64,000 bases of DNA. Source: Mycetocola zhadangensis. Its GTDB lineage: Bacteria > Actinomycetota > Actinomycetes > Actinomycetales > Microbacteriaceae. The notes under the pieces were generated by a model. It had not been told where the DNA came from. It worked only from the letters and a program-made list of their open reading frames with translations, and made no database searches. Positions 14,931 through 20,990 of this stretch are shown here, piece after piece. The DNA is taken from positions 1 to 64,000 of the forward strand of contig NZ_RCWJ01000002.1 of the NCBI RefSeq assembly GCF_003668565.1, written 5' to 3'. How positions within the stretch are numbered: the first letter of the stretch is position 1; every line of letters begins with the position of its first letter. Made by a program: the position numbers and the translations under genes.

Positions 14931-15851
14931 ATGACTGATCCACTGCTCGTGAGCGTCCCAGGCAAGACCCTCCGCAAAGCCATCGGTGACATTGATGGCG
15001 TCGAATTCGTCGAGTGGGACTTTTCAGGGCCCGCACCTCGATCCGAGTTCGACATCGTGATCACTCCGTACATGGGCGCTACAGACAAGCTCGGCGTCCT
15101 CGCCGGAGTCACCACAAGGCTCGTCCAAAGTCAGTCCATCGGCTATGACGGCGTCGACGAGGTCCTTCCGCCCGGAAACGTCTTTGCCAATGCCAGCTCG
15201 GTGCACGAAACATCGACGGCCGAACTGACGCTTGCGCTTCTCCTCGCATCACAACGTGGCATCCCCGACTTTGTCCGCGCCGCGGGCGACGGCCGCTGGG
15301 CCCCTGCCCGCTACGAGAGCCTCGCCGACCGCACGGTGCTGCTTCTGGGTTACGGCGGAGTCGGGAAGGCCATCGAAGATCGGCTCGCGCCGTTCGAGGT
15401 GAACCTCGTCCGTGTCGCCACGCGGGCGCGCAGCGACGAACGAGGCCAGATCCATGCAATCAACGAGCTCCCCGAGCTCTTGCCTCAGGCCGACATCGTA
15501 ATCGTCGGGGTTCCACTCACTGCCGACACCACGGATCTCGTCGACGATCAATTTCTCTCCTCAATGCCCGATGGCGCCTTGCTCGTGAATATCGCTCGCG
15601 GAGCCGTTGCGAACACTGACGCGATCCTTCGCCACGCTGAGTCCGGCCGACTGCGGTTCGCTCTCGACGTCACAGACCCGGAACCCCTGCCAGAGGGTCA
15701 CCCGCTGTTCGCCCTGCCGAATGTGCTCATCAGTCCGCACGTCGGCGGTGCCACCACCGCCATGATGCCCAGGATGGCGCGGCTCGCTCGCCGTCAGATT
15801 GAGCGAATGCTTCGGGGCGATGAGCCGGAGAACGTGGTGCTGCGGAGCTAA
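14931..15851 (+). CDS. D-isomer-specific 2-hydroxyacid dehydrogenase
   Basis: A 306-residue NAD-dependent dehydrogenase. The nucleotide-binding motif is VLLLGYGGVGKAI. The catalytic triad is seen as Arg in NIARGAVAN, Glu in DVTDPEPLPEGHP and His in ISPHVGGAT. The enzyme reduces or oxidises a D-2-hydroxyacid or an analogous substrate, which the sequence does not identify. It has no ribosome site; TAGGGT ends six bases before the ATG, pointing to leaderless translation. It stands alone between the rhamnose locus and the fibre locus. Confidence 0.87.
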   Translation: MTDPLLVSVPGKTLRKAIGDIDGVEFVEWDFSGPAPRSEFDIVITPYMGATDKLGVLAGVTTRLVQSQSIGYDGVDEVLPPGNVFANASSVHETSTAELTLALLLASQRGIPDFVRAAGDGRWAPARYESLADRTVLLLGYGGVGKAIEDRLAPFEVNLVRVATRARSDERGQIHAINELPELLPQADIVIVGVPLTADTTDLVDDQFLSSMPDGALLVNIARGAVANTDAILRHAESGRLRFALDVTDPEPLPEGHPLFALPNVLISPHVGGATTAMMPRMARLARRQIERMLRGDEPENVVLRS

Positions 15852-15879
15852 TCTGCACACTAACTTCAGTGAGCAAAAT

Positions 15880-16065
15880 TTCCCTATCGCTGAGCGGGCG
15901 TCTATGCTAACGTCGCTTTTGGGGGATTGCTTTCGTGCCCCGGCGCAAGAAGATGAATTCCTGCGCCAAGGATGGCGCGGATTCATAACTTTGCTTCCGG
16001 GGGGAACATCAGTGGACTATGTCCGTCGATGAGTGCCCGCCAACTGACACTCAAAAGGAACACTG
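15880..16065 (+). promoter_or_regulatory. promoter and structured 5' leader of the fibre locus
   Basis: TTCCCT (15880-15885) and TATGCT (15903-15908) are 17 bases apart. The inferred leader of about 150 bases is long for this genome and can fold. GGCGCA (15942-15947) pairs with TGCGCC (15962-15967), and a CCCCGG near 15938 can pair with CCGGGG near 15997. AAAGGAA precedes the ATG at 16066. No known riboswitch class is recognised. Confidence 0.45.
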
Positions 16066-16653
16066 ATGAAGAAAATCACTAAAGGAACTATTGCTGCAGG
16101 CGCTGCCGTCGCACTCCTGCTCGGCACCGGCGGATCTCTCGCCTACTGGAACAGCACCGTAGACGTGGGAACTCCTGCTGTCATCTCCGCAGGTAACCTT
16201 GCTCTCACGCAGACCGCTGCACCCGCCTGGACGATCGTGCACACCAGCGGCACATCGACCCCCGTCGCCGACATCGCCGCGGTTCGCGTCGTTCCCGGCG
16301 ACCGCCTCGTCTTCAGCGCTGACTACTCGATCGCAGCTCAGGGCCAGAACCTCGAGTTCACCGCAACCGTCGCTCCCGGATCAATCACCCCGGTCGATGC
16401 GGCTGACCCCGCAGACGTGGCGCTTGCTGGCGACCTCGCTCAGACGGCCGCGTTCACCATCAACGGTGTCGCCGGCCCCACCGCGACGATCGCGCACAAC
16501 AGCAACACCGCAGGCACATACGCCGTCACGATCGATGTTGACCTCAACTGGGCATTCGCTGGCGCTCCTGCAGATGACAACGCCTCGAAGACCGGACAGG
16601 TTAACCTCTCCCAGTTCGCAGTTGCCGTAACCCAGGTCGACGGCAGCCTCTGA
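16066..16653 (+). CDS. TasA-like exported protein with alternate (SipW-type) signal, RER_14450 family
   Basis: A 195-residue secreted protein. Residues 1-27 form the alternate signal peptide, with MKKITKGTIAAGAA, a hydrophobic core and GGSLAYWN. This AYW-type site is the hallmark of proteins cleaved by dedicated ER-type signal peptidases. The mature part is Ala/Thr/Asp-rich and predicted beta-sandwich, with the VRVVPGDRL segment shared by TasA/camelysin-like proteins. It has no cysteine. It is the first gene of a five-gene locus ending with such a peptidase, and is followed by a strong stem-loop, so it is probably the most abundant product, that is, the major fibre subunit. That role is inferred. 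Confidence 0.87.
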   Translation: MKKITKGTIAAGAAVALLLGTGGSLAYWNSTVDVGTPAVISAGNLALTQTAAPAWTIVHTSGTSTPVADIAAVRVVPGDRLVFSADYSIAAQGQNLEFTATVAPGSITPVDAADPADVALAGDLAQTAAFTINGVAGPTATIAHNSNTAGTYAVTIDVDLNWAFAGAPADDNASKTGQVNLSQFAVAVTQVDGSL

Positions 16654-16662
16654 TAGTGGCTC

Positions 16663-16688
16663 GTGGTCGTCGCCTCGGCGACGACCAC
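16663..16688 (+). terminator. strong stem-loop after the first fibre gene
   Basis: GTGGTCGTCGCC (16663-16674) and GGCGACGACCAC (16677-16688) pair perfectly over 12 bp around two bases. It begins ten bases after the stop and lacks a T-run. Such a hairpin inside an operon fits partial termination or message protection favouring the first gene. Confidence 0.65.
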
Positions 16689-16700
16689 ACCGGGGTTCAT

Positions 16701-17300
16701 ATGGTTCACGCGAATACGAAGTACACAGCTCGTCGCGATTCGCGACGGCTCGCAAAAGCCAGCTCGCGAGCGCGATCGCTTCTGACAGCCACGCTGCTGT
16801 CGGGCGGCGCGCTCGCGCTCGGCCTCGCGAGCGCCGGTGGAACCTATGCGTTGCTGAATGCGAGCGTCCAAACCCCCGCCGTCACGGTCACAGCCGGAAC
16901 CTTCGAGTTGCGGGTAAACGGCGCTGCATCGTCAGCACTCGGCACGTGGGCCGCCGTGACTCCGGCTACTCCGGTTGCTCGGTCCTTCACTGTCACCAGT
17001 GTCGGCGATGTGCCCTCAGTTCTCAACGCACGAATTGCCACGACCACGAGTACGGCGATTACCGCGAACACCCAGGCCCGACTCACTCCTGTCGCAAATG
17101 CGGCGGCGTGTGCCGTCGGGCTCGGCGGTCCGCTCGCCGACCTGAGCGGGTACACCCTCGGATCTCTCGACCGGCTCGCAGCCGGCCAGACAAAGACATA
17201 CTGTCTCGAGGTACGGCTCAGGCCGGCAACACCGACTACCCAGAGCGGTCAGGGCGTCGGATTCACGCTCACCATCGGTGCCGACCAGGAGGCGCGCTAA
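16701..17300 (+). CDS. minor SipW-dependent exported protein with conserved cysteine pair
   Basis: A 199-residue exported protein. A basic N-terminus (RRDSRRLAKASSRAR) leads into a hydrophobic core and the site GGTYALLNAS, an alternate-type signal like that of the first gene. The mature part carries two cysteines (AAACAVGLGG and TYCLEVRLRP). They align with two in the N-terminal domain of the next gene's product, so a disulfide is likely. The ATG at 16701 is chosen for its signal layout; an in-frame GTG at 16656 would add 15 residues that overlap the stem-loop. It is one base before the next gene and probably a minor subunit. Confidence 0.75.
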   Translation: MVHANTKYTARRDSRRLAKASSRARSLLTATLLSGGALALGLASAGGTYALLNASVQTPAVTVTAGTFELRVNGAASSALGTWAAVTPATPVARSFTVTSVGDVPSVLNARIATTTSTAITANTQARLTPVANAAACAVGLGGPLADLSGYTLGSLDRLAAGQTKTYCLEVRLRPATPTTQSGQGVGFTLTIGADQEAR

Positions 17301-17301
17301 T

Positions 17302-18624
17302 ATGCGAAGTGCCCGTCAAGGCGTAGCAGGCTTTCTTGCCGGCATCATGGCGTTCGCCCTGCTTGTGGGCGGCGGCGGCGCGGCCTGGGCATACTGGACA
17401 GCGTCGGCTCAGGGAACAGGGCAGGTCACCACCCCTTCCGTGACTGTGACTCAAATCAGCTTCCCATCACTGAATGCGACGTACACCAACGCACACGCAC
17501 GTCAGACAGTGACCGGCCCTTTCTCGATCTCCAACACAGGAAGCGTCGCCGGTTTTGCGACCGCGAGCATCTCCTCGACTGCGCCCATCGCTGCGCAACT
17601 GCCACTGACGATCTGGCGTGTTGCGAATTCAGCAGCCTGCGTCGCAGGGTCGACGATTCCTTCAGACGCCGTTACGGGCACATGGGCGTCGGCAACCCTC
17701 GGGAACATCCAGCTTGCAGCCGGTCAGGCGCAGACCTTATGTGTACGCACAACCATCCCGCTTTCACAACGAGACAGTGTGGCATCGGCCACAGGCGACG
17801 CCAGGGCTGCGGGCACCCTCAATGTTTCCCTCGCGACTACCACCGGGTGGACAGCGGCATCTACTCCAGCCGTAGCGACGCAAACTATGTCAGCCATCTA
17901 CCCGCTGGACACCGCGCTCGCACCCGTCAACGATTCTCGATGGCACTCGATTCGAAGCGCGAACGGCGCGACCTGTCTCGATGTCGAGGCCAACAACACC
18001 TTCGGCAACGCAATCGCCTATCAATGCGGAAGCTCCGTCCAAGCGAATCAGATGTGGCAGGTCGTCCCGGTCAGCGAAGCCGATCGCTCGCTCATCACTC
18101 TGCGTCCACGCCACTCTCCGAACAGCCGTCTCGCAGTGGACGGATCCAACCGCCAGGTGACCGTGTCGTCTGACCCCGCGTCTCCCGCCCAGCAGTGGTA
18201 CGTCCAACGCGTCTCAACGACCACCGTGCAATTTGTATCTGCGACGAACGGACTGTGTCTCTCCATGCCACAGGCCTCTGGTGTCGCAGCTCTCACGATG
18301 ATTGACTGCAGCAACATCGGCTCTGTAATCGTGAACCCCCTGCGCATCCCCCTCGGATTCTCCTCAAACGCCACGACAACCACGCTCACGGTTGGTCCGC
18401 GCGTCGCGGCCGCGCCGTTCTTCTTGCAACGGCTCTCGGGCGGAACGTGGACCACTGTGACCACGACGTCACAGGCGAACGCGTTGACCGTCGCCAACGA
18501 CCTTCTCGTGGAAGGTCCGAACACAATGCGCATCATTTTCATTGATGGAACTTTCCCGGCGTACAACAACCTCGTTCTCAACCGAGCCGGCACTGTTGTC
18601 ACGGCCGTCTCCGGGACGGGTTGA
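17302..18624 (+). CDS. SipW-dependent exported protein with C-terminal ricin-type lectin domain
   Basis: A 440-residue secreted protein. The alternate signal peptide ends in AAWAYWTAS (about residues 28-36). Residues about 35-200 repeat the TasA-like/cysteine-pair domain of the preceding gene (SAACVAGS and QTLCVRTTI). From about 210 to 350 there is a beta-trefoil lectin domain with QxW-type motifs (NQMWQVVP, QQWYVQ) and CLDV/CLSM repeats. The last 90 residues look like another beta-sandwich. The arrangement suggests a carbohydrate-binding tip or coat protein on a fibre. AGGAGG precedes the ATG. The TGA lies three bases before the next ATG. Confidence 0.83.
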   Translation: MRSARQGVAGFLAGIMAFALLVGGGGAAWAYWTASAQGTGQVTTPSVTVTQISFPSLNATYTNAHARQTVTGPFSISNTGSVAGFATASISSTAPIAAQLPLTIWRVANSAACVAGSTIPSDAVTGTWASATLGNIQLAAGQAQTLCVRTTIPLSQRDSVASATGDARAAGTLNVSLATTTGWTAASTPAVATQTMSAIYPLDTALAPVNDSRWHSIRSANGATCLDVEANNTFGNAIAYQCGSSVQANQMWQVVPVSEADRSLITLRPRHSPNSRLAVDGSNRQVTVSSDPASPAQQWYVQRVSTTTVQFVSATNGLCLSMPQASGVAALTMIDCSNIGSVIVNPLRIPLGFSSNATTTTLTVGPRVAAAPFFLQRLSGGTWTTVTTTSQANALTVANDLLVEGPNTMRIIFIDGTFPAYNNLVLNRAGTVVTAVSGTG

Positions 18625-18626
18625 GA

Positions 18627-19460
18627 ATGATGTCGCGCCCACTCAGCCGCAAAGTTCTGCCATTGGCGATTGCCTTCGGCGTTGCCCTCGCGCTCACTCC
18701 CGCAACCGCCGCTACCGCAGCTGTCGACGAGCCGCTCCTGATCTCGCGTGACGGTGTGACCTTTGCGCCCGCAAGCGACGTGCCGCTCTTCCCCTTGGCC
18801 GGGCGCATCGTGCCAGGCGATGAGGTCACAGATCGCGTCTGGCTGCGCAACGACTCCACCGAGGCTGGGCGCCTCGGACTAAACCTTGCGAACGCCACAG
18901 CAACGAACCGGGACCTCGCACAGGCATCCGATCTCACCTTCACCGACGTAGATGGCCGCGAACTCGCTCAAATCACCGTCGAGGAGGCCGTTGCGGCCGC
19001 GCCATGCGCCCCGCTGAATAACGACATCGTGCTCGCACCTGGCGAGACCTTCCCCCTCGACATCGCGCTGAATTTTGACGCGACCACGGGTTCCGCCCCC
19101 GGCGACAGCGGCCGTGAGGGCGCGCTTGGGACCTTGAGCTTTCAGCTCCGCGCCACCCTCACTGACGCCCAGGTCGACCCAGGCGACGACGGCTCTGTGT
19201 TGTGCCCGCCGACGGGTGGAACAGGGCCGAACCCTGACCCCGGCACCCCGGACCCCGGCACCCCTGGCGCCGGCGGCAACGGAGGCGCGGGTGCTGGTCT
19301 GCCTGGTTCGGGGAACTCGAACGGCGACCTTCCGACCACCGGTGGCCAGTTCAGCGCCTTTGCCGTTCTCCTGAGCACCGTGTTCCTCGGGGGCGGAGCC
19401 ATCGGCATCGCGCTCTCGCGCCGGCGCCACGAAGCCAGCATCGATGCCCAACACCCGTAA
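18627..19460 (+). CDS. LPXTG-anchored cell-wall protein of the fibre locus
   Basis: A 277-residue surface protein with an ordinary Sec signal peptide cleaved near TPATAATAAVD. A beta-sandwich domain follows, with GRIVPGDEVTDRVWLRNDS echoing the VVPGD segment of the first gene. Next come a Pro/Gly/Asn-rich spacer (PNPDPGTPDPGTPGAGG) and a complete sortase signal: LPTTG, a hydrophobic stretch and SRRRHE. It would be linked covalently to peptidoglycan by a housekeeping sortase, as no sortase gene is in view. It overlaps the signal peptidase gene by 17 bases. The start could equally be the ATG at 18630. Confidence 0.85.
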   Translation: MMSRPLSRKVLPLAIAFGVALALTPATAATAAVDEPLLISRDGVTFAPASDVPLFPLAGRIVPGDEVTDRVWLRNDSTEAGRLGLNLANATATNRDLAQASDLTFTDVDGRELAQITVEEAVAAAPCAPLNNDIVLAPGETFPLDIALNFDATTGSAPGDSGREGALGTLSFQLRATLTDAQVDPGDDGSVLCPPTGGTGPNPDPGTPDPGTPGAGGNGGAGAGLPGSGNSNGDLPTTGGQFSAFAVLLSTVFLGGGAIGIALSRRRHEASIDAQHP

Positions 19461-20118
19461 CCGGAAACGACTGCCCGGATTTCTGCGTGCTCTGAGCACC
19501 GGGATCATGACCGGCCTGTTCTCGATCATTGTCCTCGTCGGGATTGTCGCGATTGTCGTTCCTGCCGTGACTGGGTCGACGGCGCTCACCGTGATGACAT
19601 CGTCAATGGAGCCGCACTATCCAGCGGGCACTCTGATTGTGGTGCGCCCGACAGACGTCGACGACATCGCTCCGGGTGACGTCCTGACCTATCAGCTGCA
19701 CAGCGGAGAGCCGACGCTCGTGACTCACCGCGTGACGGAGCAGAGACGTACGGCGGATGGCGAATTCATGTTCACCACACAGGGTGACGCGAACCCCAGC
19801 CCGGACGCCGGCTTCGTGATCGAAGACCAGGTAGTCGGCACGGTTTGGTACGCGGTGCCGTGGGTCGGCTGGGTCAGCCAGATCGTCACGGGCGACATTC
19901 GAGCGGTCGTCGTACCGCTCGCGGCGGGAGCTCTTGGGATCTACGCAATCTGGATGATCGGATCCGGCCTTAGGGAGCGCACCAAGCGCCCCAAAGGTGG
20001 ACCCGCACGCAGTGAAGCGGCCGACTCGGCGCTGGCTGCCAAGGCGCCGGCCGACGGAACGCCCGCGCTTGCGGATGGGCAGCCGCTAACGCGCCGCGCG
20101 CGCCGCCAGGTCCACTAA
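19444..20118 (+). CDS. ER/archaeal-type signal peptidase I (SipW-like)
   Basis: A 224-residue membrane peptidase. It has an N-terminal helix (about residues 20-43), the catalytic serine in MTSSMEPHYPAG (Ser54), histidine in LVTHRV (His95) in place of the bacterial lysine, and aspartate in QGDANPSPD (Asp115 or Asp121). A second helix follows near residues 155-175. The Ser-His-Asp arrangement defines the SipW/SPC18 class that processes alternate signal peptides. The C-terminal 50 residues are a charged cytoplasmic tail. The overlap with the LPXTG gene implies coupled expression with its presumed substrates. Confidence 0.9.
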   Translation: MPNTRNRKRLPGFLRALSTGIMTGLFSIIVLVGIVAIVVPAVTGSTALTVMTSSMEPHYPAGTLIVVRPTDVDDIAPGDVLTYQLHSGEPTLVTHRVTEQRRTADGEFMFTTQGDANPSPDAGFVIEDQVVGTVWYAVPWVGWVSQIVTGDIRAVVVPLAAGALGIYAIWMIGSGLRERTKRPKGGPARSEAADSALAAKAPADGTPALADGQPLTRRARRQVH

Positions 20119-20198
20119 CGCAACTCAGGGCGACTCGGGCCGGCTCGCACCCAAGCGCCAGTCCAAGCCCACGCTGCGCGCGCTTTTCCGTGTAGAGT

Positions 20199-20215
20199 GT
20201 GTGGTCTGACCACAC
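20199..20215. promoter_or_regulatory. FadR/LldR-type operator
   Basis: GTGTGGTC-T-GACCACAC is a perfect 17-bp palindrome 17 bases before the regulator start. Its TGGTCTGACCA core fits the TGGT-N3-ACCA consensus for GntR/FadR-family proteins and closely resembles known LldR sites. Confidence 0.75.
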
Positions 20216-20231
20216 CACGAACGGGAGCAGC

Positions 20232-20990
20232 GTGACGGATGAACCCCGCGCCTGGCGCGTCGTGCTCGAGTCGATCGAGCGCGACCTGCTCGACGGCCGC
20301 CTGCGCCCCGGCGACCGACTGCCAGGCGAACGCACCCTCTCCGCCGACCTCGGCGTCGGACGCTCGAGTGTGCGTGAAGCACTTCGGGTGCTCGAGGTGC
20401 TCGGTCTGATCCGCACGGCGACGGGCTCGGGCCCCAGTGCGGGTGCGATCATCGTTGCGCTGCCCGGCGGCGGCATGTCCGCCCTTATGCGACTCCAGGT
20501 TGCCGCGACGGGCTTCGCTGTCGCCGACATCGTAGGAACGCGACTCGTTCTCGAGACCGCCGTTGCTGCCGACCTGGCCGAGTCCGCTCCGAAGCGGAGC
20601 CTTGAGGCATCCGTCGGTCTTCTGGATGTCATGGAGTCGCGCACACTCTCAGCCGACGAGTTTCTCGCTTTGGACGCGCAGTTTCACCTCTCGCTCGCCG
20701 AGGCGTCTGGCAACCAGGTGATCGCGGCGACGATGGCCGGCCTGCGCAGTTCGATCGAGAGTTACGTGCGCGCCGGGGCGTCGACCCTGCCGTCGTGGGA
20801 GGCGACATCCGCTCGGCTGATGCTCGAGCATCGCGACATCGTGAGGGCAATCGAGTCCGGCGACGCGGCTGTCGCCCGCGCAACGGTGCACTCGCACATC
20901 GAGAACTACTACTCCGAGACCAACCTGCCCGCGCATCGAGTGGTCGGTTTGCCAGAAACGGTTCCGGATGCCACGCCACGAGGCACGTAG
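20232..20990 (+). CDS. GntR/FadR-family regulator, probably LldR-like
   Basis: A 252-residue regulator. The N-terminal winged helix-turn-helix includes [20 protein letters not shown] and [17 protein letters not shown]. The C-terminal FCD effector domain has the metal-ligand pattern [23 protein letters not shown] and HSHIENYY. The GTG at 20232 follows CGGGAG. It immediately precedes lldD on the same strand, and its upstream palindrome matches the LldR operator type. The simplest reading is a lactate-responsive repressor of itself and lldD. A regulator of another organic acid is possible. Confidence 0.85.

Follow-up and report, generated by a model that had tools for sequence, protein, structure and literature searches.

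Five neighbouring genes of Mycetocola zhadangensis (Microbacteriaceae), here called g1 to g5, probably specify a thin hair-like surface fibre, with one sugar-binding subunit and another that would fix the fibre to the cell. The genes lie in the first 64,000 nucleotides of contig NZ_RCWJ01000002.1; this stretch is the window analysed, and coordinates refer to it unless a locus or contig is named. They form a tight operon (16066–20118), all on the + strand and head to tail, with gaps of 47 bases between g1 and g2, 1 base between g2 and g3, and 2 bases between g3 and g4, and an overlap of 17 bases between g4 and g5. It is considered fairly probable that the products make a cell-anchored fibre of the TasA/SipW kind, linked by donor-strand exchange, with g3 at the far end and g4 closing the chain at the cell. 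The analogy with TasA and SipW had been drawn in a sequence-only reading of the same DNA, and is supported by the conserved linkage of the genes, by a domain common to four of the products, and by matches of the g2 profile and the g4 model to known fibre proteins. The same reading had described three SipW-type exported proteins, a lectin domain, an LPXTG protein, an endoplasmic reticulum (ER)-type peptidase and the 17-base overlap, and that description holds; the lectin-bearing subunit is corroborated by the Pfam ricin-type matches in g3 and in 22 of 40 of its relatives. Features of the operon are as follows.

16066..16653, + strand: g1, SipW-type exported protein of the TIGR04089 family, proposed major fibre subunit (TIGR04089 and TIGR04088 scores; AlphaFold2 model)
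16147..16191, + strand: mature N-terminal segment of g1, residues 28–42, proposed donor strand (cleavage site set by analogy with TasA)
16701..17300, + strand: g2, SipW-type exported protein, proposed minor or adaptor subunit (domain common with g1)
16851..16892, + strand: proposed donor segment of g2 (17–22 residues ahead of the first core strand in 52 family rows)
17302..18624, + strand: g3, exported protein with a SipW-type signal, a subunit-like domain at the N-terminus, a ricin-type lectin and a C-terminal module, proposed adhesin (alignment with the g2 family; Pfam)
17392..17442, + strand: proposed donor segment of g3 (17–22 residues in 39 of 41 g3-family rows)
17941..18309, + strand: ricin-type beta-trefoil lectin domain of g3, residues 214–336 (PF00652, 4.3e-8; PF14200, 2.8e-13)
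18627..19460, + strand: g4, ordinary signal peptide, fibre-subunit-like domain, Pro/Gly linker, LPTTG, hydrophobic stretch and basic tail, proposed acceptor-only base (homology to g2 and g1; model)
18723..19166, + strand: TasA/archaeal-pilin-like domain of g4, residues 33–180, its start corresponding to the start of the first core strand of g2 (hhalign; structural alignment)
19329..19343, + strand: LPTTG sorting motif of g4 (sequence reading; weak anchor-model match, residues 231–269)
19444..20118, + strand: g5, ER/archaeal-type signal peptidase I (SipW-like), presumed catalytic residues Ser54 and His95 (TIGR02228, 3.2e-27)

The start codons of g2, g3 and g4 were picked by hand. For g2, open reading frame (ORF) tools give a GTG at 16656, and 16701 was preferred.

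Export signals, common domain and donor segment

The g1 protein is a member of the TIGR04089 family (112.2 bits, cut-off 60), and carries a SipW-type signal according to TIGR04088 (24.0 bits, cut-off 19). Against the latter model g2 is borderline (17.1 bits), reaching 19, just over the line, when scored together with its in-frame neighbours, and g3 stays under the cut-off (13.9 bits); the g2 and g3 families align across the signal region (E 3e-17). Signal peptides and cleavage sites were judged by eye, the g1 site by analogy with TasA. Two cysteines of g2 are invariant in a 32-row family alignment. The g5 peptidase matches the archaeal/ER-like type (TIGR02228, 95.4 bits, cut-off 51.85, E 3.2e-27), and scores 79.8 bits, under the cut-off of 190, with the Bacillus SipW equivalog model NF046067. 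Ser54 and His95 are present in its sequence, and the strings S-M-x-P and [TS]-H-[RK], searched for anywhere in the protein, occur in 75 of 75 related peptidases. The g4 protein has, by eye, an ordinary signal peptide of AxA type rather than one of SipW type, and terminates with LPTTG, a hydrophobic stretch and RRR. It falls under the cut-offs of the anchor models Gram_pos_anchor (16.6 bits, cut-off 20), TIGR01167 (14.2, cut-off 15.9) and NF058582 (19.6, cut-off 27).

By profile comparison, g1, g2, the N-terminal part of g3 (g3N) and g4 represent one domain, g3N being linked to the others via g2. E-values are 3.7e-15 for g1-g2, 3e-17 for g2-g3N, 1.8e-11 for g2-g4 and 3.9e-7 for g1-g4; the corresponding alignments with one partner reversed gave 0.3 for g1-g2, 0.41 for g3N-g2, 1.9e-4 for g2-g4 (in the signal region), 0.034 for g1-g4, and 0.0057 for g3N-g4. 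Residues 80–209 of g2 (in a 214-residue numbering) are aligned by hhalign to residues 34–178 of g4. The alignment starts 13–14 residues past the predicted cleavage site of g2, and 1–2 residues past that of g4, both sites being set by eye.

The first core strand follows the cleavage-like site at a nearly constant distance in three of the families: 16–21 residues in g1 (median 17; 93 rows), 17–22 in g2 (52 rows), 17–22 in g3 (39 of 41 rows). In g4 relatives, where residues were counted to the S of an SxDG motif inside the first core strand, the median is 7 residues for the 30 of 48 proteins that could be parsed; the other 18 were unparsable by pattern, and three values of -2 and one of 33 are mis-parses. 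The donor strand of TasA spans residues 28–38, as given in an excerpt of PMC9674648, and structural alignment paired residue 1 of the g4 model with residue 42 of TasA. On these alignments, the g1, g2 and g3 families keep a segment of 16–22 residues at the position of the TasA donor strand, and g4 alone is devoid of it, a distinction made here for the first time. Since the g4 domain starts just behind that position, g4 would be a subunit domain lacking the donor strand, and looks like an acceptor-only surface anchor.

Structures were predicted for g1 and for the g4 domain, each as a single chain. The AlphaFold2 model of g1 is beta-rich, with a mean predicted local distance difference test score (pLDDT) of 88.2 and a low-confidence N-terminus; that of the g4 domain has a pLDDT of 87.6. 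Among the best Foldseek matches of the g4 model are a Pyrobaculum bundling pilin (7ueg, 2.5e-4), the Sulfolobus thread (7pnb, 4.8e-4), a 27-nm tube (9bab, 8.9e-4) and the TasA fibre (8aur, 1.2e-3). In VIA-align, residues 1–152 of the model are superposed on residues 42–236 of the fibre form of TasA (Z 8.7, root-mean-square deviation 3.3, 138 residues); the TasA monomer 5of2 gave Z 6.6, deviation 4.0, 133 residues. The g2 profile retrieved from the PDB as its best hits, with weak scores, TasA (5of1, 0.0091; 8aur, 0.011) and the archaeal bundling protein AbpX (9sj2, 0.012; 9rhp, 0.013), and also CEP192 at 0.012; two sorts of donor-strand or bundling fibre thus head the list side by side. The single sequence of g1 retrieved nothing credible from the PDB (best 1.1). 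TapA is not among the PDB matches of the g1, g2 and g4 profiles, no search having been aimed at tapA relatives. Kinship with TasA, as judged from profiles and models, thus rests on g2 and g4, and extends to g1 through the common domain. The TasA-like beta-sandwich expected from the sequence-only reading is only partly reflected in the models: that of g4 resembles the TasA fibre about as closely as it does some unrelated chains, and that of g1 by itself does not single out TasA.

Conservation and variable parts of the cassette

TIGR04089 proteins were found in 67 of 150 genomes of the window's family, distributed in 44 of 85 genera. Relatives of g5 occur in 97 of the 150 genomes and fall in two groups: 75 matches score at least 80 bits, and all others at most 66; the 80-bit line delimiting the close type was drawn after seeing the gap (80.4 against 66.0 bits). 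Of the 75 close g5 relatives, 73 have a g1 relative within 8 kilobases (kb), and all 65 genomes with the close type carry the g1 family (Fisher p 9e-41, uncorrected for relatedness). The test used 79 g1-family places, weaker neighbours of the same clusters being omitted. The g1 family is found without the close peptidase type in two genomes, both fragmented (190 and 290 contigs). Co-conservation of the genes had been set beforehand as a test of the proposal, and these counts uphold it. On a wider scale, 24 of 198 genomes of the order, belonging to several families, have TIGR04089 proteins over the cut-off; a sample of 296 genomes of the phylum gave 2, both in the window's family. Among the matches listed, Isoptericola halotolerans (L123) carries a g2/g3-like gene and a g4 relative bearing LPRTG, together with a peptidase match.

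Genes were called in 77 loci, made by 75 stretches around g1 relatives, the window, and a second cluster of the same genome. The peptidase is present in 72 loci. A g4 relative was recognized in 52 loci, and in 59 after a second pass, which regained the gene in seven (L056, L057, L072, L079, L106, L108, L120); two weaker candidates (L078, L098) were left uncounted. At least six long peptidase calls, due to a wrong upstream start, hid g3 or g4 genes (L049, L057, L062, L063, L068, L070). The first pass gave the exact order g1-g2-g3-g4-g5 in 18 of the 77 loci, and recovery of g4 added 5; in the remaining loci one or more genes are uncalled, or the order is different.

The gene in third position varies in domain content. 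In the window, g3 matches RicinB_lectin_2 (PF14200, 2.8e-13, 50.8 bits, gathering score 25.6) and Ricin_B_lectin (PF00652, 4.3e-8, 33.8 bits, gathering score 29); a sub-threshold CDtoxinA match overlaps the lectin. Modules were counted in 40 of 43 candidate position-3 proteins, three (L049, L078, L082) being omitted for shortness or faulty extension. Each of the two ricin-type models is matched by 22 of the 40; the others include fn3 (8), CDtoxinA (4), DUF11 (3), a rhamnogalacturonan lyase domain (2), and CBM2, laminin-G, PKD and others once each. Protein lengths vary from 206 to 1461 residues, the longest being possibly over-extended. None of the 40 C-termini features, by eye, a membrane stretch with a basic tail: the membrane stretch flagged by script in the L060 protein does not resemble one on inspection of the C-terminus, and the L058 protein terminates in a Pro-rich stretch and VQTTG. 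From domain content, g3 looks like a swappable adhesin, the lectin being one of several third-position modules, and the cassette recurs in the family, frequently with a different binding domain or with none recognised. As the module differs between genomes, the specificity for the target would change, the fibre staying the same.

Termini of g4 vary as well. Among 58 relatives, 7 have LPxTG in the C-terminus, 19 LAxTG, 17 another xxTG motif (at least 2 of them by chance), and 15 a membrane stretch only; four long-tailed rows were reassigned by hand (L053, L056, L057, L097). Anchoring looks constant wherever g4 exists, the means varying. A sortase is present in 142 of the 150 family genomes. The window genome encodes three, the nearest PF04203 match being at C2:114390, about 94 kb off, and the PF04203 profile scan of the genome revealed none within the cassette. 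Of the sortase-anchored base initially envisaged, the surface anchor is retained; the involvement of sortase is less general, as LPxTG or LAxTG mark just 26 of the 58 relatives, and the cassette lacks a sortase.

Proposed assembly and alternatives

Assembly may proceed in four steps. According to the families to which the proteins belong, g5 would cut the SipW-type signals of g1, g2 and g3, leaving a segment of some 17 residues free at the N-terminus. By homology with TasA, the freed segment would act as a donor strand entering the open groove of the beta-sandwich of a neighbour, g1 making most of the chain and g2 serving as a minor or adaptor subunit. The g4 domain begins after the donor segment, hence it could accept a strand and could not donate one; accordingly placed at the end of the chain, g4 would terminate it at the cell, where its LPTTG motif would let a sortase encoded elsewhere attach it to the wall. 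At the far end g3, which keeps the donor segment, has the lectin behind the subunit domain, and carries no anchor, would start the chain and present its sugar-binding domain. We infer fibre formation, polarity and the tip position of g3 alike, and polarity is the boldest part.

The cassette resembles the TasA-TapA-SipW system of Bacillus subtilis in the SipW-type signals, the ER-type peptidase encoded in the operon, the N-terminal donor-like segment, the weak profile similarity to g2 and the fold similarity to g4. It differs in having extra subunits, a lectin adhesin, an anchored subunit devoid of the donor segment, and the peptidase gene in last position. TasA fibres are of donor-strand and not amyloid-like type, and TasA-like systems are widespread, archaea included, according to excerpts of PMC10903470 (citing Wang et al. 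2022 for the latter). The archaeal bundling pili (7ueg; AbpX) and the Sulfolobus thread (7pnb) are among the best fold matches of g4, and AbpX is among the best PDB matches of the g2 profile. Thread subunits are joined by donor strands and are ordinary substrates of signal peptidase I, as stated in excerpts of PMC9715654, which in contrast to the cassette mention no lectin module or sortase signal for these filaments. With chaperone-usher pili (type 1 and P pili) there is analogy only, in the fusion of a tip adhesin to a subunit domain; PapG, FimG and CfaB pilin domains are found among the fold matches of the g1 and g4 models. In such pili it is the tip adhesin that lacks a strand and can only accept one; in the cassette it is the anchored protein g4. 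To our knowledge, bacteria of the lineage of the window organism have no outer membrane. The TIGR04089 model (exp_by_SipW_III, RER_14450 family), of which g1 is a member, names only an exported protein, and covers neither g2 to g4 nor a mechanism. Neither an actinobacterial fibre of TasA type nor a subunit with a lectin or a sortase anchor was found described in the open-licence PubMed Central (PMC) papers listed, surveyed mostly by titles and first lines.

Several observations weigh against the proposed fibre. The g3N-g4 alignment (E 0.0079) is no better than its reversed control, and the g1-g3N alignment (E 1.4e-6), a pair with no reversed control, spans just 43 columns, mostly of signal. 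Unrelated chains tie with TasA for g4 by VIA-align Z (8k2i, 8.8; PorA, 8.6), and two AvmM chains are within the five Foldseek matches of g4 below 0.001. The g1 model retrieved nothing at E 0.001 or less in Foldseek, TasA 8aur ranking 15 (E 0.11); its VIA-align Z values, 6.0 at most, are to mixed beta-sandwiches, with pilin-like matches, none clear. TasA is absent from the PDB matches of the g1 profile (best 0.58) and of the g4 profile (best 0.17). As to layout, g4 was not found in 18 of the 77 loci, hence is not required everywhere. In B. subtilis TapA, the presumed anchor of TasA, donates the first strand and is unable to accept one, as given in excerpts of PMC10151520 and PMC9674648. Since the anchored partner is strandless here and a donor there, the chain would be anchored at its acceptor end, with opposite polarity.

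The TapA precedent (PMC10151520, in the excerpt cited) favours a donor-strand fibre of other polarity or layout, in which g3 has its place along the shaft or basally, and g4 acts as a chaperone or initiator bound to membrane or wall instead of ending the chain as an anchor. Such an arrangement, unlikely on balance, would agree with the loci in which g4 was not found, and with g3N being a full subunit-like domain with a donor segment, which could both give and accept. Yet g4 lacks the very segment that TapA uses, and a shaft position would have to tolerate the large C-terminal modules of g3-type proteins at every copy.

Less likely still, the products might form no fibre, and be four separate surface or secreted adhesins which share a fold and a private signal peptidase. 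The similarity of the g1 model to many beta-sandwiches about equally is consistent with this, as is the fact that no filament of the g1–g4 family is described in the PMC titles and first lines surveyed. The linkage of peptidase and subunit genes (73 of 75 cases) argues otherwise, as do the N-terminal segment, almost fixed in length in three families and missing from g4, and the best matches of the g2 profile and the g4 model, which are fibre proteins. A covalent pilus built by sortase, with g4 as base and g1 to g3 as pilins, is rejected as very improbable: LPTTG in g4, the LPxTG or LAxTG motifs in its relatives and the three genomic sortases would suit it, but the nearest sortase is remote from the cassette, and sequence reading revealed no sorting signal with membrane stretch on g1, g2 or g3.

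If the anchored donor-strand fibre is real, nearly half of the sampled family genomes could make TasA-type fibres with an interchangeable adhesin, TIGR04089 proteins would gain a function, and donor-strand fibres of Gram-positive bacteria a clear model of polarity and anchoring. More tentatively, and with rather less confidence than is given to the anchored fibre as such, the cassette may typify a Gram-positive donor-strand fibre made by SipW-processed subunits, a swappable adhesin giving the first strand, and a strandless acceptor fixed to the wall or the membrane. Such a layout would combine adhesin presentation of chaperone-usher kind and anchoring of sortase kind, dispensing with chaperone, usher and pilin sortase.

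Genomic surroundings and second cluster

From comparison of the flanking genes, the cassette (15852–20198) is an accessory locus at a variable site. In two other genomes of the genus (G002, G086), roughly 0.1 kb separates the relatives of the genes at 14931–15851 and 20199–20990; in another (G149), five unrelated genes lie between them (loci L129–L131 across the three genomes). These genomes carry a second cluster type only (L095, L101, L103), the window genome carries both.

The g1 leader (15900–16060) features two G-runs, TTTTGGGGGATT and CCGGGGGGAACA. The heptamer GGGGGAA occurs in 15 of the 76 stretches that precede g1 relatives and in 3 of 380 random ones, and may reflect only ribosome-binding sites or leaders.

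In the second cluster of the window genome (L013:820–9925; G000:C2:679319–688424) the peptidase is accompanied by three genes of g1/g2 type, an exported protein without lectin, a g4 relative bearing LPGTG, and a response regulator. Two opposite-strand genes separate the peptidase from the rest. In that interval, at L013:1699–4251 on the opposite strand, is encoded a protein of 850 amino acids as called, with an Ala/Asp-rich low-complexity N-terminus, HNH-like by eye. A sub-threshold TIGR04088 match (17.5 bits) outside both clusters (L008; G000:C2:316567–316662) is inside a transporter-like ORF, and is thus probably due to chance. At L017:301–2829 (G000:C2:353800–356328) an LPLTG protein, which we take to be SpaA-like, is followed by a sortase, in a separate operon that probably specifies a sortase-built pilus.

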